This document shows positions 1-46,460 of a DNA stretch of 64,000 nucleotides, piece after piece. Origin of the DNA: Limnohabitans sp. (GTDB taxonomy: Bacteria > Pseudomonadota > Gammaproteobacteria > Burkholderiales > Burkholderiaceae_C); the NCBI RefSeq assembly GCF_017848645.1, contig NZ_JAFEIF010000027.1, positions 1 through 64,000 of the forward strand. The letters run 5' to 3'. The position numbers were made by a program, and so were the translations under genes. The notes below the pieces were generated by a model. It searched no databases, was not told the DNA's origin, and saw only the letters and a program-made list of their open reading frames with translations. Positions within the stretch are counted from its first letter, which is position 1. Each line of letters opens with the position of its first letter.

Positions 1-135
1 GGTCGATTTGCCGCAGCCGGAGGGCCCGACAAAAACCACGAACTCGCCGTGCTGAATCTCGAGATCGATGCCGTGGATGACCTGGTTTTTGCCGTCGTAG
101 GATTTTTGAACGTTGTGAAGTTGAACAGAGGCCAT
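1..135 (-). CDS. ABC transporter ATP-binding protein (N-terminal fragment)
   Basis: The first 45 residues of an ABC-transporter ATPase are visible; the gene runs off the left edge. The Walker A motif GPSGCGKST lies at residues 37-45, and the preceding residues, ending in [11 protein letters not shown], are typical of MalK/UgpC-type importers of sugars or sugar alcohols. The ATPase would energise import at the inner membrane. The next gene upstream on the same strand is a Gfo/Idh/MocA dehydrogenase about 95 bp away, which fits a carbohydrate-uptake and catabolism cluster. Substrate cannot be inferred from this fragment. Confidence 0.9.
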
Positions 136-191
136 GGTCGATTCGCAGTCCCTTGATGTCAATCAAAGGAGAAAAAGCAATAAAAATGTAT

Positions 192-203
192 ATGAATAAT
201 AAA
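192..203 (+). promoter_or_regulatory. Candidate operator, copy 1 of ATGAATAATAA(A/T) motif
   Basis: ATGAATAATAAA sits in the A/T-rich gap upstream of the ABC ATPase gene. The same 12-mer, 11 of 12 identical, recurs in opposite orientation at 1561-1572 upstream of the dehydrogenase gene. A site shared by two promoters of one cluster suggests a common regulator, for which the GntR protein at 1959-2684 is the local candidate. Function is inferred. Confidence 0.35.
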
Positions 204-230
204 TGAATCGGACCTAAATGCCTCTTGGGG

Positions 231-8205: not shown

Positions 8206-9426
8206 ATGAACGCCCCCCTCTCCCGCGCAGCCTTGGCGAATGTGCAAGCCGCCGACCTGGCCGCCTTGCCCCTGATCGAAAAATGGATCGCCTTTGCCAC
8301 CGTCTCGCGGGACAGCAACCTGGCCTTGTTGGACTGGACCGAGGCTTACCTGAACGATTTAGGCATCCACTGCAGCCGCACCTACGACGACAGCGGCCAA
8401 AAAGCCAACCTCTGGGCCACGCTGCCCGCGCACGACGGTGAAACCCAAATCGGCGGCCTGGTGCTGTCGGGCCACACCGACGTGGTGCCGGTGGACGGCC
8501 AGCCCTGGGAGACCGACCCGTTCAAGGTGGTGATCCAAGGCGACAAGATGTACGGCCGTGGCGTGACCGACATGAAGAGTTTTGGGGCCATCTGTTTGAT
8601 GATGGTGCCCGAGTTGCTCAAGCGCAAACTCAAGCGCCCGATTCACCTGGCCTTCAGTTACGACGAAGAAGTGGGCTGCATCGGCGTGCGCCGCATGATT
8701 GCCGACATGGTGGCGCAGGGCTTCAAGCCTGCAGGCTGCATCGTGGGCGAGCCCACCGGCATGCAGGTGGTGATTGCGCACAAGGGCAAGCATTCGTACA
8801 AAACCACGGTGCACGGTTTTGAGGCGCACTCCTCGCTCACGCCGCTGGGTGTGAACGCGGTCGAGATCGCTTGCGAGTTTGTCGCCAACCTGAAAAGCAT
8901 GCACCGCGAGTTGGTGCAAAACGGCCCGTTTGACCCGATTTACGACGTGCCGCACACCACCATCCACACGGGCGTCATCGCAGGCGGCACCGCGCTCAAC
9001 ATCATCCCGCGCCAGTGCGAGGTGACTTGGGAAATCCGCCACCACCACATGAACACGCCGGAAGACCTGTTTGCCCGCGCCAAAGCCTTTGGCGAGAGCT
9101 TGGTGCCCGCCATGCAAGCGGTCGCGCCGGACACGGGCATCACCCACGAGCTCAAATCGGTGCTGCCCGGTTTTGCCACGGCGGCCGACAGCGAGATCGC
9201 GCAGCTGTGTTTTGACTGCGCCGAGGTCGACCCGGCCAGTGGCGCAGGCAAGGTGTCGTTTGGCACGGAAGCTGCTCTGTTCCACCAGGCGGGTGTGCCC
9301 ACCATCGTGTGTGGCCCCGGCCACATCGCGCAGGCGCACCAGCCCAACGAGTGGGTCACGCTGGAGCAGCTGGCCTGGTGCGAGCGCTTCATGCGCCGCC
9401 TGGCCGACCGGGTGTGCGTGGGCTGA
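8206..9426 (+). CDS. argE: Acetylornithine deacetylase
   Basis: This 406-residue M20-family metallohydrolase would deacetylate N-acetylornithine to ornithine in arginine synthesis. Visible metal or catalytic positions are His90 in GHTDVVPVD, Asp122 in VTDMKS and Glu154-Glu155 in YDEEVGC. GPGHIAQAHQPNE near the C-terminus carries the last metal-ligand region and is characteristic of ArgE rather than DapE. The ATG at 8206 is chosen over an in-frame start 22 codons upstream, whose extra residues look unlike the family. A related N-acyl-amino-acid amidohydrolase role is possible, as many Burkholderiales have several paralogues. Confidence 0.87.
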   Translation: MNAPLSRAALANVQAADLAALPLIEKWIAFATVSRDSNLALLDWTEAYLNDLGIHCSRTYDDSGQKANLWATLPAHDGETQIGGLVLSGHTDVVPVDGQPWETDPFKVVIQGDKMYGRGVTDMKSFGAICLMMVPELLKRKLKRPIHLAFSYDEEVGCIGVRRMIADMVAQGFKPAGCIVGEPTGMQVVIAHKGKHSYKTTVHGFEAHSSLTPLGVNAVEIACEFVANLKSMHRELVQNGPFDPIYDVPHTTIHTGVIAGGTALNIIPRQCEVTWEIRHHHMNTPEDLFARAKAFGESLVPAMQAVAPDTGITHELKSVLPGFATAADSEIAQLCFDCAEVDPASGAGKVSFGTEAALFHQAGVPTIVCGPGHIAQAHQPNEWVTLEQLAWCERFMRRLADRVCVG

Positions 9427-28077: not shown

Positions 28078-28088
28078 TTGTCATACAA
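28078..28088. promoter_or_regulatory. FadR-type operator-like palindrome TTGTCATACAA
   Basis: TTGT-CAT-ACAA is a short palindrome that fits the known FadR/GntR core pattern GT-N3-AC with matching flanks. It starts 5 bases upstream of the chosen start codon of the GntR/FCD gene, the expected place for autoregulation. Inferred, not proven. Confidence 0.45.
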
Positions 28089-28527
28089 GAAACAAGTTCA
28101 AGCATAACTGGGCTTTGACAGCTTGTCTGTCATCCATGAGCGCGTCCCTCATTACCAAACTATAGATTCGGCTCCATGATGCTTGAACTGTTTGAGAAAA
28201 GTCCAAGATGGCGTTGTCTTCACTTTTGTAGGTGCCCACCGCCCTGTGGGCGATGGTTTTTGAGGGCATGTAACGCGCCCATCGCCCACGGAGTGGTCTC
28301 TTTGACCAAGATTCGTACAATGGCTATCGCTTAAATCTCTATCAGACCGGATCAAAAAAGCAACAATTCCGTCTGGCTGCGCTGTGCCCGAAACCGTCGA
28401 ATGAACCGGTAGCTAAATTCGACAAGTCCGTTCAACTTCGAGAACGTATCCTTGTGATTTTTGAAAAATCTGAAGGTCCTGATCATCCTTTAACAGTCCA
28501 GGCTTCGAGCAACTTGTCGCTAGATCT
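28089..28527. other. Intergenic region at left edge of island
   Basis: No supported gene. The sequence changes here from GC-rich to more A/T-rich. It contains the 11-bp inverted repeat listed separately, and short frames on the minus strand (for example a 44-codon frame from ATG 28486 without a clear ribosome site) that match nothing I recognise. It may be degraded mobile DNA. Confidence 0.6.
28246..28289. repeat. Perfect 11-bp inverted repeat
   Basis: GTGGGCGATGG at 28246-28256 is repeated inverted as CCATCGCCCAC at 28279-28289, with 22 bp between. It lies near the left edge of the low-GC island, downstream of its operon. No U-rich tract follows on either strand, so it is not a standard terminator; it could be a structured RNA or a recombination remnant. 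Confidence 0.8.
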
Positions 28528-28773
28528 TTAACCTATACAGAACGATGCCATCAGGGTGCCGTCGACATGGCGCAGCGCGACTGCTAGCGGATCGGCCGTC
28601 GCGCTGATGCTAGCAACCAGCACTGCAGTGGTCCACCACCCAGCATCGTGCTGGGACCGCTGTAAACGCAGCGCAGCGATGATTACCGGAGTGGTGCAGC
28701 AAACGACCACCGCCCATCTAAGAACATCAGCTAGCAACACTATGACTGTCCCAGTTCCATTAGGTGGCAACAC
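28528..28773 (-). CDS. Possible small membrane protein, unknown
   Basis: A GTG start at 28773 is preceded by AGAAGG at 5 bases and overlaps the end of the PLP-enzyme gene by 14 bp, which suggests translational coupling. The 81 residues contain two hydrophobic segments (GTVIVLLADVLRWAVVV... and TTAVLVASISATADPLAVAL). A longer version from ATG 28821 is open too. I recognise no family. It could be the last member of the island operon or a chance frame. Confidence 0.35.
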   Translation of the reverse strand: MLPPNGTGTVIVLLADVLRWAVVVCCTTPVIIAALRLQRSQHDAGWWTTAVLVASISATADPLAVALRHVDGTLMASFCIG

Positions 28774-29971
28774 TCTCGCCTTCTCGCTCTGCGTGCATTG
28801 ACGAGATGGATGTGAGCCCAAGGTGGATGTCTGACATCAAGTCGGCCTCATTCTCTAGACCAACGGACAGGCGGACCAAACGATCAGTGATGCCCACGAA
28901 CAGCCGCTCGTCCGGTGACAGCTTTCCGTGCGTAGTCGACGCAGGGTGGGTGATCATGCTGCGAGTGTCGCCAATGTTGGTCGCAATGGAGATCAACTGG
29001 AGCGAATCGATCATCGCCCAAGCACTCTCACGGCTGCAACCTACTTCGAAACTCAGCACGCCACCGTAGCCGGTCTGCTGACGGCATATCAGCGCGTGCT
29101 GATCATGGTCATTGAGGCCCGTGTAGAACACACGCCCGACCTCGGGCTGGGTACGAATCCAGTGGGCGAGCTGCAAGGTCTTCTGACTGATGGCGTTAAC
29201 ACGCAATTCAAGCAATTCGAGGCTCTTGTGTAGCAACCACGCATCCATGGCCCCAAGCGTGGACCCGAGCGCGCGCAGCACGCCTCGCAGTTCGTGCATT
29301 AGACACTCGCTACCAACGACGACACCAGCTACGCAACGCCCTTGGCCGTCGATGTACTTTCCTGCTGAATGCACAACGAGGTCGGCCCCATGCTCCAGCG
29401 GATTCTGGTGAATTGGCGTCAGCAGCGTGTTGTCAACCACTACCAGCGCGCCGAGCGCATGCGCGATCTGGGCAATCGCAGCAATGTCGCCAACGTTTTG
29501 TAAGGAATTCGACGGTGACTCCAAGAAGACGAAGGCGGTGTTCTCATTGATGGCAGCTCGCCATTCGTTGAGGCATGTGAGGTTCACCACCCGCACGTCG
29601 GCACCCAGCTTTCTGAAATAGTTGCAGAAGGCAGTCAAGGTCGTTCCGAACACGTCGCGGGAAACTACCAAGTTCTTCCCTGCGCTCAGCCAAGCATGAG
29701 CGATGCCGACTATAGCGGCCATGCCTGACGAGAAGGCAACCCCATCCTCTGCGCCCTGCATAGATGCGATGCGTTTCTCGAAAGAACGTACGGTGGGGTT
29801 CGAGAAGCGCGAATAGACATTCCCCTTCTTCGCGCCGCTGAATTTGCTCGCTGCGTCCGCAGCGGACGCAAACACGTACGCCGAAGTCATGCCGATTGGC
29901 TCGCAATAGGCATCGGACATGTCCGGGAACTGTCCAATGCGTACTGCGCGGGTCGTTAAATGGTGTGTCAA
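28760..29971 (-). CDS. Cys/Met-metabolism PLP enzyme, O-succinylhomoserine sulfhydrylase-like
   Basis: This 403-residue fold-type I PLP enzyme has the family YSRFSNPT (Tyr53), the PLP-binding Asp180 in VVVDNTLL and the Schiff-base Lys205 in HSAGKYIDGQGR, a MetZ-like signature. Most MetZ proteins have Thr before the Lys; here it is Gly. The family makes or breaks C-gamma bonds of homoserine- or cysteine-like amino acids. Start is TTG 29971 with GGGAG at 8 bases. As part of the island operon with an HDO enzyme, exporter and acetyltransferase, it may act on an unusual amino acid rather than in methionine synthesis. Confidence 0.88.
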   Translation of the reverse strand: MTHHLTTRAVRIGQFPDMSDAYCEPIGMTSAYVFASAADAASKFSGAKKGNVYSRFSNPTVRSFEKRIASMQGAEDGVAFSSGMAAIVGIAHAWLSAGKNLVVSRDVFGTTLTAFCNYFRKLGADVRVVNLTCLNEWRAAINENTAFVFLESPSNSLQNVGDIAAIAQIAHALGALVVVDNTLLTPIHQNPLEHGADLVVHSAGKYIDGQGRCVAGVVVGSECLMHELRGVLRALGSTLGAMDAWLLHKSLELLELRVNAISQKTLQLAHWIRTQPEVGRVFYTGLNDHDQHALICRQQTGYGGVLSFEVGCSRESAWAMIDSLQLISIATNIGDTRSMITHPASTTHGKLSPDERLFVGITDRLVRLSVGLENEADLMSDIHLGLTSISSMHAEREGESVAT

Positions 29972-30026
29972 AGCAGTTACTCCCTTACTGAACGTACTTA
30001 GTGGTGTGTTGTGACATCATGCTTCT

Positions 30027-31280
30027 CTACCTATCGAACTCCACCAATGAACAAGTCTCCGGTTCAGGCACGCGTTGGCTACTACGCAACGTCAACCAAC
30101 TAATCACCGAACCGACAATAGTCACCCCGGCCAGTGAGACGATGACTGGCGTGTAAGTCTTGAAGGCGTCGAAAGTAGCGGCCCCCAGTTGCACCGAGAC
30201 GAAAGCGCCTAGCTGGTGTGCTAGGAATAGCAGCCCGAAGGTCTGTCCCTTGATTTTTAGCCCGTAACGCTCTAGGCAGTACATCGACGTGATCACGACA
30301 GTCCCGAGGTAGCTCGCCCCAAACAAGCTGGCGAAGACGATGGTGCGTACTTCCGATACCGAGCTAAGCAACAGCAGCATGGCGAGCGAACGCATCACGT
30401 AGAAGCTAGCAAGCAGTGAATGCTTGTTGTATCGCATAGCCAGCCAGCCGGTCACTAAACCGCTTACCAGTTCAAGCGTGCCAAGCATGCCAAGACTAAC
30501 GGCCATCTGGGTGCGCGACGTTCCGCCGTCCTGCCAGAAGGCGACCAGATGAACATCGACAAATGCCATAGTGGCGCCGCAGCCAAAGAAGCCGCATGCT
30601 AGGGCATAGAAGCCAGGATCAGTGCGCACCTCTCGCCAAGCCGAAGGCTTGCGCTCCGTCCCAACCGACGCCTCCTCACCCAACCCGACTGAGTCGGCTC
30701 TACGCGCAGCGTACCAAGCAATTACTGCAGTTGGAACAAGCAGGACGAATCCGGTCCAGAAGAAGGCCTCTGTCCAGCGCACCTGCGGTTGCAGCCACAA
30801 CCAGAACGGTGACAGGATGATGAAGCCAATGGACGTGCCATTGGTGATCACTGCATAGGCAAATCCGCTTTTGCGCTGCTCGAACAGTCTGTCGACCAGC
30901 ACTCCCATCGGTACGTAGGTCATGGCGGCTAAACCGAAAGCTCCACACAATCCATAGGCAAGGATAAACAGGCCGAGAGACTGGTTCAGAAGGCTGGTCC
31001 CGACGAGCGCGATGCCCGCGGCAACAGCGCCGACCACCACAGTGCGTAGAGGCCCGAATCGATCACTGAGCAAGCCGACGAGCGGCGAGACGAGGCCGGT
31101 AACCAGCATGAAAATTGAACCCGACCAAGCGAAGTCGGCTCGGCCGCGGCCGAAATGCCCCGCCAAGTCGCTAAAGTAAATTTGATAGACGCTCTTGATG
31201 CTCGTGGATAGAAACATCACCACGAAGCCGAATGTAACCAGCAAGTAAATTAACTTGCGCGAAGCAGCTGAGTTGTTCAT
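30027..31280 (-). CDS. MFS transporter
   Basis: This 417-residue protein has twelve predicted transmembrane segments and the MFS motif A-like loop VGLLSDRFGPLRT between helices 2 and 3. The overall type resembles oxalate/formate-like or small-metabolite carriers, but the substrate cannot be read off. It is 12 bp after the HDO gene and 55 bp before the PLP-enzyme gene, so it is cotranscribed and is the likely exporter or importer for the island's compound. Confidence 0.92.
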   Translation of the reverse strand: MNNSAASRKLIYLLVTFGFVVMFLSTSIKSVYQIYFSDLAGHFGRGRADFAWSGSIFMLVTGLVSPLVGLLSDRFGPLRTVVVGAVAAGIALVGTSLLNQSLGLFILAYGLCGAFGLAAMTYVPMGVLVDRLFEQRKSGFAYAVITNGTSIGFIILSPFWLWLQPQVRWTEAFFWTGFVLLVPTAVIAWYAARRADSVGLGEEASVGTERKPSAWREVRTDPGFYALACGFFGCGATMAFVDVHLVAFWQDGGTSRTQMAVSLGMLGTLELVSGLVTGWLAMRYNKHSLLASFYVMRSLAMLLLLSSVSEVRTIVFASLFGASYLGTVVITSMYCLERYGLKIKGQTFGLLFLAHQLGAFVSVQLGAATFDAFKTYTPVIVSLAGVTIVGSVISWLTLRSSQRVPEPETCSLVEFDR

Positions 31281-31292
31281 GTTTCACTCAGC

Positions 31293-32012
31293 CTAAGCGA
31301 TTTCTGCAGATGCACGGTATTCGCGATGCATGTCGTCATACATTGCATAGAAGAGGCGGCAGGTGTGGTCGACTGCATACAGTGCCTCTTTGCGCATCAC
31401 CTCGGTGGTGCATAGTTCAGAAACGAGGTTCAGTCCCTGCTCGACGTGTCCCACATCCTCCTGCTGGTGGACTGAGAAGAACTGTAGGTCGAATTCGTTG
31501 AGTCCATAGACCTTTCCTAGTAGCTCATGACGAGCCTCGCCGGCACGGGTCTCGAGATTTTGCCCCTCGCTGGCAATCATGACTGCTGCCGCTCCAATGT
31601 GGTAACACGAAATGTCGCGCACTGCGTTTAAGCGGTAATTGATCAGCTCCTGAGTGGCCGGCAAGGGCGTGATGGAATCGCGCCAGGCCTCGTCGACACC
31701 CAGAGCACGGATGAAGTTTTGCATCAGCACAACATGGTTGTCTGTTTTGGAGAGACGTCCGGTCTCCTCTTCGTAGACATTGATCAGCAAGGCGCGCTTG
31801 AATTTCGGCTCTGGGCAATAGAAGTAGAGGTGCTCAACGTAGTCGAGAAAATGCTTGGTGAGCTGGTAGCCCTGCAGAGTTACCTTGCGCAGGAGGTCGA
31901 TATTCTTGCATTTCGGGTCGAGTAACTCGTGGAAGATCGGATGTGAGAGCGTCAGGTGGCTCTCGAGCAGTTCACGAAGCTCCTGCTTGAATCGTGCTTT
32001 CGAATTGGACAT
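31293..32012 (-). CDS. Haem-oxygenase-like di-iron enzyme (TenA/CADD-type fold)
   Basis: This 239-residue all-helical protein has the iron-ligand pattern of haem-oxygenase-like di-metal oxidases. Glu82 in NVYEEETG and His93 form the first pair, Glu149 the bridge, and His182-x3-Asp186-x2-His189 the last set. The last spacing equals that of CADD. Known members (UndA, BesC, SznF, CADD) cleave or oxidise amino acids and fatty acids with O2. A haem-degrading role is unlikely because the di-iron ligands are complete. AGAGAGA precedes the ATG. The gap to the MFS gene is 12 bp and to the GNAT gene 16 bp. Substrate unknown. Confidence 0.82.
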   Translation of the reverse strand: MSNSKARFKQELRELLESHLTLSHPIFHELLDPKCKNIDLLRKVTLQGYQLTKHFLDYVEHLYFYCPEPKFKRALLINVYEEETGRLSKTDNHVVLMQNFIRALGVDEAWRDSITPLPATQELINYRLNAVRDISCYHIGAAAVMIASEGQNLETRAGEARHELLGKVYGLNEFDLQFFSVHQQEDVGHVEQGLNLVSELCTTEVMRKEALYAVDHTCRLFYAMYDDMHREYRASAEIA

Positions 32013-32028
32013 GGGTATTTCTCTCTAG

Positions 32029-32595
32029 TTAGGTGGATTGGTGGTTATCGGGAAGAACCAGCGCACGAAGGGCGGTGACGCTCTGGATCATGAAATGCCC
32101 GCGGTAACTCTTGCCGCCGATACGCGCGTAGTCATCAAGTACACCGAAGCTGACAAAGCCGAAACGCTGCCACAAAGCGTGTGCCCGGCAGCCTTCACGG
32201 ACATCGAGTACCAGTTGATCGACGCCTAGTTGCTCGGCGCGCTGGACCAAGGCGCGGAACCCCAGTTGGACATAGTTTTTTCCACGATAGTCCGGATGCA
32301 CGACTCCCTTGCTTAGCTCGGCACGATGCCGACAGTTGGGCATGCGGTTTAGCGTGATGATTACGAGGAAGGCGGGTTGACTGTCCACGCGACCAAGCAG
32401 GACACTGGACTCTCCAGCAACCACGGAGCGTCGTAAAGCTTCGATAAAGGCCTGGGCTTCGGCTACGGACATTAGCTCTGCATAACCCAGCGTGCCCCCG
32501 TCCCCGGTTGCGCAATTGACCAGATTGACAATGGCGCTTGCCATGTCAGGATTGAACTCCGCGATCCACTCATAAGTCACACTTGGGCTATTCAT
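32029..32595 (-). CDS. GNAT family N-acetyltransferase (island operon)
   Basis: This 188-residue acyltransferase has the acetyl-CoA-binding motif A as GVVHPDYRGKNYVQLGFRAL and motif B around LWQRFGFVSFG. It is the first gene of the island operon, with GGAGA before ATG 32595. GNAT enzymes N-acylate amines; in clusters that make amino-acid antimetabolites a GNAT often gives self-protection by acetylating the product. That role is inference. Substrate unknown. Confidence 0.88.
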   Translation of the reverse strand: MNSPSVTYEWIAEFNPDMASAIVNLVNCATGDGGTLGYAELMSVAEAQAFIEALRRSVVAGESSVLLGRVDSQPAFLVIITLNRMPNCRHRAELSKGVVHPDYRGKNYVQLGFRALVQRAEQLGVDQLVLDVREGCRAHALWQRFGFVSFGVLDDYARIGGKSYRGHFMIQSVTALRALVLPDNHQST

Positions 32596-32629
32596 TTTTT
32601 CTCCGACACCAAATTATTTACCTTCCATC

Positions 32630-32657
32630 AGAATACGTGATTACCATTCTTTGTTAA
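32630..32657 (-). promoter_or_regulatory. Candidate sigma-70 promoter of island operon
   Basis: On the minus strand TTAACA (32657-32652) and TATTCT (32635-32630) are separated by 16 bp. The start codon of the GNAT gene is 34 bases downstream of the -10 box. This is the only good match in the A/T-rich gap shared with the divergent regulator. Confidence 0.4.
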
Positions 32658-32742
32658 GCAAAATTAGAGACCAAAATACCAATAAAATGGACATCTAGCT
32701 TTGCACCCGATTCCCTTGCTCCATCACGGTGCTTTTTCGACC

Positions 32743-33720
32743 ATGAAACACGCCTACTTCGTCGTCTTACCAGACACACATGTGCTCGATTTGGCGGGCC
32801 CGCTGCAGATCATCTCGACGCTGCGTGAGCTCAATATCGCCAACATCAACGTGGAGTGCATCGGGCCTCAAGCACAGGTTAAAACCTTCCAAGGCTCAAC
32901 GATCTCAGATGTGTGGCCATTGCCAAAGCGGCTGCGTCCACACTCAGTGGTGTTTGTCGCCGGAGGTAAATTCAACGTAGCGATGCAGCGTTCGCGTCCT
33001 TGGCTCGAAGCCAGCGAATGGTTGCGCGAACGCACCGCGAATGTCGATGGCGACTGGAATGTCTGCGGTATTTGCACTGGTAGCTTCCTGCTCGCGCAGG
33101 CCGGTTTGCTGAATGGACGGACGTGTACAACCCATCATCGTTTTTTGCAGCAACTCAGGCGGGACTATCCTGCAGTTAATGTTGTCGAAGGGCGCTTACA
33201 CGTCCGCGACGACAAGGTGTGGACTTCCGCTGGTGTGGCTGCTGGGATAGACCTAGCGCTACACCTGATCGCCGACGCCTTCGGCGACGACGCGGCGATT
33301 CAAGTAGCCAGGGAGAATGTCGTCAGCTTTCGCCGATTCGGCAGTGATCCGGAATTGGGCGCAGCGTTCCGTTACCGCTCTCACTGCCATTCCAAGATCC
33401 ATGCCGTACAAGATCTGATCGCTAATAATCTCACGCGCGACATCAAAGTCGCTGAGCTTGCGCAGACCATAGGCTACAGCCAGCGTCATTTGGCTCGCGT
33501 CTTCCTGACCGAGACAGGCATCACGCTGAAAAGCTTTCAGACAAAACTCCGCATGGAACAGGCGCGTCGAATGCTCACCGGAACAAAGCTCTCACTCGAG
33601 CTCATCGCCGAGCAATGCGGCTTCCACAGCGTTCAGGCCTTCAGGGCCAACTGGGTTAAGCGTGAGGACGTGCTGCCTTCTGCCTTGCGCTTGAACCGTC
33701 CACGCAATCGCGCGTTTTGA
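32743..33720 (+). CDS. GlxA-type transcriptional regulator (DJ-1/PfpI plus AraC helix-turn-helix)
   Basis: This 325-residue regulator has an N-terminal DJ-1/PfpI-like domain (residues about 1-170, with WNVCGICTGSFLLAQAGLL). A C-terminal AraC-type double helix-turn-helix follows (KVAELAQTIGYSQRHLARVF; LSLELIAEQCGFHS). Homologues such as GlxA, ArgR of Pseudomonas and CdhR activate amine and amino-acid metabolism genes. ATG 32743 is chosen; a TTG at 32701 is possible. It is divergent from the island operon and probably controls it in response to the substrate or product. Confidence 0.9.
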   Translation: MKHAYFVVLPDTHVLDLAGPLQIISTLRELNIANINVECIGPQAQVKTFQGSTISDVWPLPKRLRPHSVVFVAGGKFNVAMQRSRPWLEASEWLRERTANVDGDWNVCGICTGSFLLAQAGLLNGRTCTTHHRFLQQLRRDYPAVNVVEGRLHVRDDKVWTSAGVAAGIDLALHLIADAFGDDAAIQVARENVVSFRRFGSDPELGAAFRYRSHCHSKIHAVQDLIANNLTRDIKVAELAQTIGYSQRHLARVFLTETGITLKSFQTKLRMEQARRMLTGTKLSLELIAEQCGFHSVQAFRANWVKREDVLPSALRLNRPRNRAF

Positions 33721-33872
33721 CAGCATGAACTGCCGCGTATCGTGGAGGCTGGTTGGATGAAGCTGATCTTCCACTAGGGCACGCGACGAACTCGCCCAGC
33801 CCGTTCTTATTTCAGCAGTAGTTAACTGCACGCGCATTAAACCTCATCCGCTGACGCTTCAAGGCATATGAC

Positions 33873-34160
33873 CTAGCTCAAATCGTCGTGCGTGTGCCTG
33901 TGGAACGCGTGCATCACGCGCATGTCACGCGTGAGTTGGTCCAGTGCTTTCCAGCCGTTGTAGTGGCTTGAGGGGGCCTCGTGTGTGGAAGCAAGGATCT
34001 GCGCCTTCTACCGGGCCAGGGGGCTATATTGTCCGGGTAGATTGCGCAGTGCAATTTCGAGTTTCACCGTTGGCCGTCGCGCCATCCGTACGGGCCGGGC
34101 TTCATTACCGCAGTTGTACTTGCATAGGGCCAAATCAATGAGCCGACACAGCAAGCCCAC
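33873..34160 (-). pseudogene. Degenerate reading frame, unknown origin
   Basis: A minus-strand frame from GTG 34160 encodes about 50 residues (with CKYNCGNEARPV and VKLEIALRNLPGQYSPLAR), stops at TAG 34010-34008 and continues in the same frame for 44 codons (KAQILASTHEAPSSHYNGW onward) to TAG 33875-33873. The composition looks protein-like on both sides of the internal stop. I recognise no family. It may be a decayed gene at the island edge, or chance. Confidence 0.3.
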
Positions 34161-34164
34161 CTTG

Positions 34165-34206
34165 AAATTACGTTTAGGTAAACCGATTTATCAATGGTAA
34201 ATTACG
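34165..34206. promoter_or_regulatory. Repeated AAATTACG operator-like sites before hydroxylase
   Basis: AAATTACG occurs at 34165-34172 and again at 34199-34206, 34 bp apart. GGTAAA also occurs twice in the interval, and GTTTAGGTAAAC forms an imperfect palindrome. The cluster ends 46 bp before the hydroxylase start codon, as expected for a regulator-binding region. No regulator gene is adjacent. Confidence 0.4.
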
Positions 34207-34252
34207 GCCTGGGCACCGCAGGGTGCTTTTTGACCAATTTGGAGCTCGTCAC

Positions 34253-35920
34253 ATGGGTGCTTACGTCAACCCGATTTATCCCTACAAGTCGCCTGCCGAC
34301 CTGATGGCCACACCGCCGCAGCGCAAACCGCTGATCGTGATTGGCGCAGGGCCGGTGGGCCTGGCCGCTGCGATCGATGCGCGCTTGCAGGGCCTGGATG
34401 TGCTGGTGCTGGACGACGACAAAACCGTGTCGGTTGGCTCGCGGGCGGTTTGCTACGCCAAGCGCTCGCTCGAAATTCTGGACCGCCTGGGCATTGCCAA
34501 CGAGGCCTGCCAGCTGGGCGTGAGCTGGAACATTGGCCGCACCTTTTTGGAAGAAGACGAGGTCTACCAGTTCAACCTGGTGCCCGATGCGGGCCACAAG
34601 CGCCCCGGCATGATCAACCTGCAGCAGTACCACGTCGAGGAGATGCTGATTGCACGCGCCCTCGAATTGGGGGCCGACATCCGCTGGCAGCACAAGGTCA
34701 CTGCCGTCACGCCCCACGACACGCACGCCACGCTGACGGTAGAAACGCCCGAAGGCACGTTCGACATCGAGGCCGACTGGCTGGTGGTGGCCGATGGCGC
34801 ACGCAGCCCCATTCGTCGCCATTTGGGGCTGGACATCGAAGGCCGCGTGTTCCAGGACCGCTTCTTGATTGCCGACGTGATCATGAAAGCCGACTACCCC
34901 GCCGAGCGCTGGTTCTGGTTCGATCCGCCCTTTCACCCCAACCAAAGCGTGCTGCTGCACAAGCAAAGCAACAACGTCTGGCGCATCGATTTTCAGCTCG
35001 GCTGGGACGCCGACCCTGAAGAAGAAAAGAAGCCCGAAAAAGTCATTCCGCGCCTGAAGGCCATGCTGGGCGACGAGCGCCCGTTTGAGCTGGAGTGGGT
35101 CAGCATCTACACCTTCCAGTGCCGCCGCATGACCGACTTTCGCCATGGTCGTGTGCTGTTTGCGGGCGACGCGGCGCACCAGGTCTCACCCTTCGGTGCA
35201 CGCGGGGCCAACTCGGGCTTTCAGGACGCGGACGATTTGATGTGGAAACTGGGCCTGGTCATCAAGGGCCAAGCCAGCGAGAAGTTGCTCGACACTTACG
35301 CGATGGACCGTCAGTTTGCCGCCGACGAAAACATCATGAACTCGACGCGCTCGACCGACTTCATCACACCCAAGAGCCGCACCAGCAAGACATTCCGCAA
35401 CCAGGTGCTGGCACTGGCCAAGCACCACCCCTTTGCGCGCAAGCTGGTCAACTCGGGCCGCCTGTCGGTGCCGTCTTTCCTGACCGGCTCGGTTCTCAAC
35501 ACTCCCGACGCCGACGCGTTTGAAGGCCAGATGGTGCCCGGCGCACCGATGGACGACGCACCCTTGCAATTGGACGGCCAAGACGCCTGGCTGCTGGACC
35601 AGGTGGGGCGCGGCTTTGCGGTTTTGCACTTTGTGGATGCTGCGCCCGATGCCCAGACACTGGCCACGCTGCAAGCGCTGAAACAAGGCGCGGTGCCGGT
35701 GGACAGCCTGATTGTGTCGCGCCAGGCCCTGCAGGTGCCCGGCTTTAAAGTGTTGGTGGACGCGCAAGGCTGGATGGCCAAGCGCTACGACGCCCAGCCC
35801 GGCACCACCTATTTGCTGCGCCCCGACCAGCATGTGCTGGCCCGCTGGCGCAGCCTGGACAGCGCCCGGCTGCAAACGGCCATGGCCCGTGCCTTGGGGC
35901 AAGTGGGCGAACGGGCCTGA
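34253..35920 (+). CDS. FAD-dependent aromatic hydroxylase (MhpA/TfdB type)
   Basis: This 555-residue flavoprotein monooxygenase has the FAD motif GAGPVGLAAA, the DG motif VVADGARSPIRR and the GD motif LFAGDAAHQVSPFGARG. This is the class A aromatic hydroxylase set using NAD(P)H and O2. Its C-terminal thioredoxin-like extension is typical of MhpA/TfdB-type enzymes. GGAG precedes ATG 34253. It is followed by DUF2783 and VOC genes, probably one catabolic operon. The aromatic substrate cannot be deduced. Confidence 0.9.
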   Translation: MGAYVNPIYPYKSPADLMATPPQRKPLIVIGAGPVGLAAAIDARLQGLDVLVLDDDKTVSVGSRAVCYAKRSLEILDRLGIANEACQLGVSWNIGRTFLEEDEVYQFNLVPDAGHKRPGMINLQQYHVEEMLIARALELGADIRWQHKVTAVTPHDTHATLTVETPEGTFDIEADWLVVADGARSPIRRHLGLDIEGRVFQDRFLIADVIMKADYPAERWFWFDPPFHPNQSVLLHKQSNNVWRIDFQLGWDADPEEEKKPEKVIPRLKAMLGDERPFELEWVSIYTFQCRRMTDFRHGRVLFAGDAAHQVSPFGARGANSGFQDADDLMWKLGLVIKGQASEKLLDTYAMDRQFAADENIMNSTRSTDFITPKSRTSKTFRNQVLALAKHHPFARKLVNSGRLSVPSFLTGSVLNTPDADAFEGQMVPGAPMDDAPLQLDGQDAWLLDQVGRGFAVLHFVDAAPDAQTLATLQALKQGAVPVDSLIVSRQALQVPGFKVLVDAQGWMAKRYDAQPGTTYLLRPDQHVLARWRSLDSARLQTAMARALGQVGERA

Positions 35921-45309: not shown

Positions 45310-46460
45310 GCGGCACCTCCTTCGTTCAAAGTCTTCGCCATGTTGTCAAAGTAAGAGCGCACCACGTTCATGTAGCGGGCATCGTCCAGCAAGAAGGCGT
45401 CGTGCCCGTGCGGCGCATCGATCTCGGCGTAGCTCACATCACGGCGGTTGTCGAGCAGGGCCTTGACCATTTCCCGGCTGCGGGCGGGCGAGAAGCGCCA
45501 GTCGGTGCTGAAACTGACCAGCAGGAATTTGCAGCGGGCACGGGCAAAAGCCTGCGACAAATCGCCGCCAAAGGCGCGGGCCGGATCGAAGTAATCGAGT
45601 GCCCGGGTGATCAGCAAATAGGTGTTCGCGTCAAAGTACTCGCTGAACTTGTCGCCCTGGTAGCGCAGGTAGCTTTCGATCTGGAACTCCACTTCTTGTG
45701 TGGAATATTTGTAGCCGGTGGCGTTGTGCGTGACGGCCTGGCGCAATTCGCGGCCAAACTTTTCGTTCATCACGTCGTCGCTCAGGTACGTGATGTGGCC
45801 AATCATGCGGGCGATGCGCAGGCCGCGCTTGGGCACCACGCCTTGCGCGACAAAGTGCCCGTCATGGAAGTCCGGGTCGGTCACGATGGCGCGGCGGGCC
45901 ACTTCGTTGAAAGCGATGTTTTCGGCGTTCAGGTTGGGAGCACTGGCCACCACCACCGCGTGCTTCACGCGCTCGGGGTATTGCAGCGTCCAGCTCAGAG
46001 CCTGCATGCCCCCCAAACTGCCTCCCATCACGGCGGCCAGTTGTTCGATGCCCAAAGCGTCGAGCAAGCGGGCTTGGGCGTTGACCCAGTCTTCTACCGT
46101 GACCACAGGAAAGTCCGCGCCATACACGCGCCCGGTGTCGGGGTTGATGTGCATGGGACCGGTCGAGCCAAAACACGAGCCCAGGTTGTTCACGCCGATC
46201 ACAAAAAAGCGGTCGGTGTCGAGCGACTTGCCCGGGCCAATCATGTTGTCCCACCAGCCCAGGTTTTTGGGTTGGTCGGCATAGACCCCCGCCACATGGT
46301 GCGAAGCGTTGAGCGCGTGGCAGATCAACACGGCGTTGGATTTGTCGGCGTTGAGCGTGCCGTAGGTTTCGTAGCTCAGCGAATAGCCACGGATGGACGC
46401 ACCGCTTTGCAAAGGCAAAGGGGCTTCAAACAGCATGCTTTGGGATTCGGCGATCAGCAT
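45306..46460 (-). CDS. metX: Homoserine O-acyltransferase MetX
   Basis: This 384-residue alpha/beta hydrolase would transfer an acetyl or succinyl group to homoserine, the first committed step to methionine. The nucleophile Ser148 is in [18 protein letters not shown] near residue 52 and GHDAFLLDD near the C-terminus with its catalytic His are diagnostic. Acyl donor preference cannot be read with certainty. The gene is preceded by a SAM-II riboswitch and terminator, so SAM should repress it. metW overlaps its end by 4 bases. Confidence 0.96.

Follow-up and report, generated by a model that had tools for sequence, protein, structure and literature searches.

BesC, a haem-oxygenase-like dimetal oxidase (HDO), is paired with the lysine 4-chlorinase BesD, and BesC and the pyridoxal phosphate (PLP) enzyme BesB act in the ethynylserine and propargylglycine pathway. 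MetZ-family enzymes move the 3-amino-3-carboxypropyl group from O-acyl-homoserine, and the MetZ-related enzymes RtxA, LolC and FUB7, of the rhizobitoxine, loline and fusaric-acid pathways, lead to O-, N- or C-linked aminocarboxypropyl compounds; we know of no HDO among the oxidases of these pathways. Here we analyse an operon that joins an HDO, a MetZ-like PLP enzyme, a GNAT acetyltransferase and an MFS transporter in a 64,000-nucleotide stretch of Limnohabitans sp. (assembly GCF_017848645.1, contig NZ_JAFEIF010000027.1, positions 1 to 64,000), hereafter the window. This acquired gene set is also found in distant bacteria in a form where a nicotianamine synthase (NAS)-like protein stands in for the PLP enzyme, and its probable role is to make an unusual modified amino acid for export. 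NAS-family enzymes are described as moving the 3-amino-3-carboxypropyl group from S-adenosylmethionine (SAM) (PMC10491745), and the HDO superfamily as holding more than 10,000 predicted members, about a dozen of them functionally validated (PMC13108848).

A compact operon in a low-GC island

The island, of ~6.0 kb, consists of the minus-strand genes GNAT-HDO-MFS-PLP plus a small membrane protein (28528–32595), and a divergent GATase1–AraC regulator:

28133–34160, edges approximate: acquired low-GC island bracketed by a GntR gene and an FAD-monooxygenase gene, from DNA comparison with 14 same-genus loci
28528–28773, minus strand: small membrane protein, 81 aa from the likely start GTG 28773; two hydrophobic segments; C-terminal DPLA....HVDG......C motif; no Pfam family in the window copy
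28760–29971, minus strand: MetZ-like PLP enzyme, proposed 3-amino-3-carboxypropyl transferase (gamma-replacement); PF01053 (Cys_Met_Meta_PP), E 9.3e-120
30027–31280, minus strand: MFS transporter; PF07690 (MFS_1), E 4.5e-33
31293–32012, minus strand: HDO with a CADD-like fold; Haem_oxygenas_2, E 7.5e-20; ligand set E82 H93 E149 H182 D186 H189
32029–32595, minus strand: GNAT N-acetyltransferase, tabtoxin-resistance-protein-like; Acetyltransf_1, E 3e-7; PDB profile match 1ghe
32701–33720, plus strand: divergent GATase1 (DJ-1/PfpI)–AraC regulator; PF01965 (DJ-1_PfpI), E 3.6e-13, and PF12833 (HTH_18), E 3.5e-18
45348–46424, minus strand, outside the island: host MetX-family homoserine O-acyltransferase; TIGR01392, 462 bits, below the cut-off of 500 (none of 14 control genomes reached 500 either)

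Open reading frames and strands were checked on the sequence, and the four large minus-strand genes are separated by 16, 12 and 55 bp. The layout, coordinates and Pfam families agree with the original prediction, which had described this operon and its divergent regulator from the DNA alone and proposed a small-molecule pathway modelled on BesC/BesB. That observation is confirmed; the interpretation had the right kind of pathway but took the wrong system as its closest model.

A PLP enzyme exchanged for a NAS-like enzyme

Short peptide patterns taken from the window HDO, scanned against ~85,000 species genomes, gave 31 HDO loci, a lower bound biased to close relatives (44–76% identity). Presence counts in these loci rest on tblastn and include some redundancy: L025 and L026 come from one metagenome-assembled genome (MAG), L005 and L012 from one strain, and L005 and L028 are near-identical. 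The homologues turned out to be linked rather than unlinked single genes. A GNAT gene lies ≤2.3 kb from the HDO gene in 30 of the 31 loci and directly adjoins it in 22, while a PLP gene is found in 20 and a NAS-like gene in 8. The same five genes occur in 18/31 loci, from Burkholderiales, Pseudomonas, Iodobacter, Alcaligenes and kin, in the order GNAT-HDO-MFS-PLP and with a regulator homologue near the operon in all 18 of these proteobacterial PLP loci (divergent and upstream in some, downstream in others). MFS genes are present in 20/20 PLP-type loci and in the NAS-type locus L027. The two Streptomyces loci (L018, L020) are arranged as HDO-PLP-homoserine O-acyltransferase family-GNAT-MFS, the gene directly 3′ of PLP belonging to the homoserine O-succinyltransferase family PF04204, and an aminotransferase was identified in L018.

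The eight loci without a PLP match but with a NAS-like match come from Sorangium, Rhodanobacter, Planctomycetota, a proteobacterial MAG, a cyanobacterial MAG and three Bacteroidota. The remaining three, L022, L026 and L029, belong to genomes that hold a NAS-like gene elsewhere (on another contig, beside a second HDO copy and ~67 kb away). The NAS-like proteins match PF03059 at E values of 7.1e-18 to 7.7e-15 in the six scanned, and for that of L025 the nearest PDB sequence is thermonicotianamine synthase (2.8e-21), with CntL at 6e-5. In L027 a single 744-aa frame encodes HDO, NAS and GNAT regions (Pfam 7.6e-19, 5e-16 and 7.9e-5), followed by an MFS protein 41% identical to that of the window; a PLP homologue is absent from this genome at E ≤ 0.001. 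By its sequence, L027 is the window's predicted enzyme and transporter set with the PLP enzyme replaced by a NAS-like one. NAS and GNAT are likewise joined in one protein in L030, L031 and L032, where the GNAT half aligns to the window GNAT at 24–27% (a weak Pfam match in L030 and L031, the two scanned). On the HDO tree, one change between PLP and NAS types suffices (support 82/73, with L022, L026 and L029 counted as NAS type).

The PLP protein belongs to the Cys/Met-metabolism family: PF01053 scores above its gathering threshold, and K205 and the YxRF.NP motif are found in 21/21 operon copies. Y53, R55, F56, N58, P59, F108, G109 and T111 are likewise present in all 21, and T110 in 20. The nearest PDB sequence is the O-succinylhomoserine sulfhydrylase (OSHS) 9iqh (4.3e-105), FUB7 is among the matches, and the FGTT motif is shared with 9iqh, whereas methionine gamma-lyase 2rfv has YGCT. 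The Streptomyces L018 enzyme passes the MetZ equivalog cut-off (536.2 bits). The window genome holds a separate MetZ-like paralogue with 43–44% identity to the operon enzyme, and in a tree built from 21 operon PLP enzymes and five own-genome paralogues, MetZ of other genomes not being included, the operon enzymes form one clade (97/95).

Because MetZ-type and NAS-type enzymes both transfer 3-amino-3-carboxypropyl groups, we read the core as one three-enzyme module. An acyltransferase-family gene directly after PLP, as in Streptomyces, is expected if the PLP enzyme consumes O-acyl-homoserine. It is mainly the NAS-like gene in relatives, together with this neighbour, that leads us to read the PLP protein as a putative gamma-replacement (aminocarboxypropyl transfer) enzyme. 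The original prediction had it rearranging an amino acid; its small-molecule operon stands as a linked and horizontally acquired unit, while the role of the PLP enzyme is better read in this other way.

Several observations concern individual loci. Upstream of the Streptomyces set lie a PvcA/DIT1-family gene and a ~500-aa partner without a Pfam family (L018, 3637–6635; L020, 3489–6613). Pseudomonas indoloxydans JCM 14246 has the whole operon twice, as diverged copies on separate contigs (L005, L012), only one of which includes a dienelactone-hydrolase-like gene; in seven loci (L007, L008, L011–L015) such a gene, assigned to PF01738 in L015, is found between the operon and the regulator. In Sorangium L017, a stand-alone DJ-1/PfpI protein (8717–9256) is encoded between HDO and GNAT, the same domain being fused to AraC in the window regulator. 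The tblastn MFS match of Iodobacter BJB302 (L007, 8754–9956) contains an in-frame stop. Lysobacter (L068, 8888–14699) and Tahibacter (L067, 8159–14185 on the reverse strand) have, at a distance from the HDO cluster, a NAS-like gene beside NRPS (non-ribosomal peptide synthetase)-like and transporter-like genes, with Pfam assignments for the Lysobacter copy only.

An oxidase with a CADD-like fold

The window HDO has the haem-oxygenase fold with at least the 3H/3C dimetal ligand set given above, and these ligands are conserved. It was placed by sequence and fold comparison, rather than by the tree with characterised HDOs that the original prediction had proposed. By fold it is nearest to CADD, and BesC ranks below CADD, HrmI, PqqC, UndA and FlcD; among the five PDB sequence matches, too, BesC comes last (E 0.067). 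The score against the CADD model TIGR04305 is 78.1, short of the cut-off of 200. The sacrificial residues of CADD are Tyr27 and Lys152 (PMC11965152). Position 27 of the HDO is F in 23, V in 6, L in 1 and I in 1 of the 31 rows and Tyr in none, an equivalence taken from the common N-terminal register of the fold match (7..230 on 7..220), and CADD K152 aligns with an invariant Arg161. The HDO also has a four-residue insertion between the first Glu and His. A self-sacrificing p-aminobenzoate synthase of the CADD or NePabS type was rejected, both sacrificial residues being absent.

Horizontal acquisition of the island

Base composition sets the island apart, as originally noted. GC is 0.535–0.577 in the six island genes against 0.607–0.678 in the five flanking genes measured, and codon use, assessed as GC at third positions only, is 0.59–0.69 against 0.81–0.83. 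Low GC by itself proves little, because the window stretches 48–51 kb and 60–64 kb likewise fall to 0.55–0.58. The empty site is stronger evidence of acquisition: the GntR and FAD-monooxygenase genes are adjacent, 144–272 bp apart, in 11 of the 14 same-genus loci, are ~0.9 kb apart in L047, and in L045 and L054 the GntR gene is not within the 1.5-kb flank. DNA similarity to these loci ends at 28088–28132 and restarts at 34160–34253; the acquired block therefore spans ~28,133–34,160, and it replaces a spacer of 97–125 bp in L044 and L042.

The operon was horizontally acquired by this Limnohabitans genome. The 59 other genomes examined include 35 same-genus ones, all of them without the HDO; a distant match (27% identity) came from a single genome of the same order. 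In 399 genomes drawn from the order, HDO matches at E ≤ 1e-30 were confined to the window's own genome and one other, G327, and the same two were matched among 397 genomes drawn from the phylum. G327 (L058) has GNAT-HDO-MFS-PLP with the regulator and the small membrane protein. Plasmid carriage was rejected, the HDO having no match in the plasmid collection.

Promoter-like sites (1 versus a mean of 3.2 in shuffles) and terminator-like sites (7 versus a mean of 6.2) were not above shuffled sequence. At the non-coding island end beside the GntR gene, 28233–28252 form an inverted repeat, TGCCCACCGCCCTGTGGGCG, which is terminator-like, a class no commoner here than in shuffles. A small open reading frame at 28081–28320 had no family match and was not counted as a gene.

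Acetyltransferase, transporter, regulator and small membrane protein

A profile of 29 GNATs, compared with PDB sequences, matched the tabtoxin-resistance protein 1ghe at E 4.1e-19, the next entry standing at 3.8e-6. The match fits acetylation of an amino acid, which could serve as a protection or an assembly step; assembly is favoured because of the fusions to NAS and HDO-NAS. The MFS protein scores 103 bits on the SfMCT model (cut-off 320), and the regulator bears a distant resemblance to GbdR of choline catabolism (111 bits against a cut-off of 480).

The small membrane protein, to which the original prediction had attached a 'perhaps', proved to be real. The gene follows PLP in 18/18 proteobacterial PLP loci, in L058 and in the window, and every copy encodes a C-terminal-region Cys 2–17 residues from the end. 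Seven pairs, of which six compare four Pseudomonas loci with one another, give a dN/dS (non-synonymous to synonymous substitution rates) of 0.29–0.41. Its start is likely GTG 28773, with AAGG 5 nt upstream, and not TTG 28821. A simple hydropathy scale predicts two hydrophobic segments in 14 of 17 copies, three in L003 and a single one in L004 and in L021. Lys and Arg are absent before the first segment in the 15 copies with two or more, and by the positive-inside rule the tail would face the periplasm. Of four copies compared with Pfam, three were unmatched and that of L016 gave a sub-threshold DUF4131.

Proposed pathway and alternative explanations

Genes around the loci without PLP bear on the direction of the pathway. 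An AMP-ligase homologue lies nearby in 7 of these 11 loci (L019, L022, L025, L029, L030, L031, L032); six of the seven also have amidohydrolase and KASIII-like homologues, and most have a carrier, KASIII-like or amidohydrolase homologue. AMP-ligase, amidohydrolase and KASIII-like homologues were not found near L017, L024, L026 and L027. Pfam searches on representatives returned AMP-binding, Amidohydro_2, ACP_syn_III and CmlA_N, with the carrier just under its cut-off (20.6 versus 20.8); thioesterase and phosphopantetheinyl transferase labels come from reading of the sequences only. Ligase, carrier, KASIII-like and amidohydrolase homologues point to biosynthesis over catabolism. The product of the window-type operon would be a free small molecule. 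The original description of a new, minimal arrangement lacking ligase and carrier thus holds for the window type in what is absent, though such genes lie near 7 of the 11 loci without PLP, and the arrangement is not new in the sense that it recurs in many genera.

We consider it somewhat better than an even bet that the operon is a horizontally spread module which uses aminocarboxypropyl transfer, oxidation and acetylation to make a small non-proteinogenic amino acid, or a conjugate, and then exports it. The host would supply O-acyl-homoserine, and the MetX-family gene at 45348–46424 could be a source of this activated homoserine. The MetZ-like enzyme would move the 3-amino-3-carboxypropyl group to an acceptor, and the HDO, with O2, would oxidise either the acceptor before transfer or the conjugate after it, by desaturation, N-oxygenation or C–C cleavage. 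The tabtoxin-resistance-like GNAT would N-acetylate, and so mask, the amine of an intermediate or product; export of the product would fall to the MFS protein, possibly aided by the small membrane protein, and the GATase1–AraC protein may sense a related metabolite. All catalytic steps, the transport direction and the order of transfer, oxidation and acetylation are inferred, whereas gene content, linkage, ligand conservation, the PLP/NAS exchange, the fusions and the acquisition are observed.

A number of observations weigh against this proposal. The window PLP enzyme scores 489.7 bits on the OSHS model NF006003, under the cut-off of 522, and the Streptomyces acyltransferase scores 218 on the MetA model, under 358. 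Support for the PLP/NAS split on the HDO tree is moderate. Tyr107 is catalytic in MtNAS (PMC10491745), and its position is Phe in the 7/7 NAS-like proteins aligned, provided that chain positions correspond to residue numbers; the NAS-like enzymes may therefore not perform amine alkylation of the nicotianamine type, and their acceptor chemistry may be a different one. The NAS-like gene of Tahibacter lies ~67 kb from the HDO, and that of Lysobacter adjoins a C-A-T NRPS and an ABC transporter on a different contig, so in these genomes it may belong to another pathway. L026 has no GNAT, PLP or NAS gene nearby, and its MAG (G799, also the source of L025) carries on contig C116, away from both HDO copies, a PLP homologue with 49% identity, which is outside the tree and closer to the operon enzyme than is the window genome's own MetZ-like paralogue. 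The MFS protein resembles monocarboxylate carriers, so uptake is possible. The loci were found with patterns of the window HDO, and the linkage counts thus describe close relatives, not HDOs at large.

Among other explanations, it is unlikely, though not negligibly so, that the product is a free amino-acid antimetabolite, the GNAT giving only self-protection like the tabtoxin-resistance protein and the HDO desaturating a homoseryl conjugate to a vinylglycine-like warhead, for which rhizobitoxine is the comparison. The wide gap between 1ghe and the next GNAT match and the MFS transporter in the operon would suit it, and HDOs can desaturate, as PolF and MboA do (PMC13108848); the GNAT fusions in L027 and L030–L032 speak more for an assembly step than for a role in immunity alone. 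Rather unlikely, too, is a metal chelator, in which the HDO would N-oxygenate an amine and the GNAT would acetylate the hydroxylamine to a hydroxamate, as IucB follows IucD in aerobactin, on an aminocarboxypropyl scaffold as in NAS-type metallophores. Neither a metal-uptake receptor nor an opine dehydrogenase was identified among the genes classified, wider neighbours being unclassified. The six ligands found fit 3H/3C and not the 3H/4C of SznF, yet HrmI is also given as 3H/3C (PMC13108848), and the comparison covers six ligands.

We think it improbable that the operon is catabolic or detoxifying, with a PLP gamma-lyase for an amino acid such as canavanine, the HDO and GNAT processing a fragment and the MFS protein importing. 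Gamma-lyases do belong to the PLP family, and the MFS and regulator scores lean weakly towards a monocarboxylate carrier and GbdR; set against these are the OSHS-type FGTT motif, the replacement of PLP in relatives by NAS-like genes rather than lyases, the Streptomyces acyltransferase-family gene and the ligase and carrier homologues. The canavanine-gamma-lyase operon was rejected as a model, the main text of PMC10018355 naming neither 'heme oxygenase' nor 'GNAT'. That the PLP gene is a spare methionine-synthesis gene with unrelated neighbours is very hard to credit: its score on the MetZ model would allow it, but the separate paralogue, the separate clade and a gene order preserved across genera speak against it, and a housekeeping MetZ was rejected on the first two.

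A wider and more tentative reading, which we rate a little short of even, is that aminocarboxypropyl transfer, dimetal oxidation and acetylation form an undescribed three-enzyme chemistry spread over at least six phyla, with transfer by a PLP enzyme using O-acyl-homoserine or an unrelated NAS-like enzyme using SAM. It would yield a new family of amino-acid products by a novel HDO reaction, with the small membrane protein and its C-terminal Cys as a new export or sensing accessory. With a SAM-dependent NAS-like enzyme in place of the PLP enzyme in relatives, and with the direct fusions, what was a vague 'HDO plus PLP' cluster yields a chemical hypothesis that can be tested; since the operon is compact and has no megasynthase, heterologous expression should give access to both the HDO reaction and the product.

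Comparison with known systems

In the open-licence literature, which excludes subscription journals and most preprints, we recognised no paper describing the module, none joining an HDO with nicotianamine synthase and none joining an HDO with O-succinylhomoserine and an operon. The gvg/FVG cluster, whose core genes are gvgA, gvgC and gvgF, was set aside, the main text of PMC8064604 being without 'heme oxygenase' or 'GNAT'; the gvg proteins themselves were not compared.

With BesC/BesB the operon has in common an HDO and a Cys/Met-metabolism PLP enzyme. It differs in its weak BesC match, in having no halogenase among the island proteins scanned and in a PLP enzyme that is OSHS-like, and the BesC/BesB analogy of the original prediction is not supported; an acetylenic amino acid of the BesC/BesB kind was rejected on the first two. 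CADD and NePabS are approached by the fold of the HDO and left behind by F, V, L or I at position 27, by Arg161 in place of K152 and by the insertion. MetZ shares its fold family and the FGTT, YxRF and Lys motifs with the operon PLP enzyme, which stands apart from the MetZ-like paralogue of its own genome and under the equivalog cut-off. Nicotianamine synthase and CntL, of staphylopine synthesis, are represented by the NAS-like enzyme that takes the place of PLP in eight relatives, with Phe at the Tyr107 position and no opine dehydrogenase among the genes classified. The tabtoxin-resistance acetyltransferase, an enzyme defined by its acetylation of tabtoxinine-beta-lactam, is the best PDB profile match of the GNAT, which in this module is linked or fused to HDO and NAS-like enzymes.

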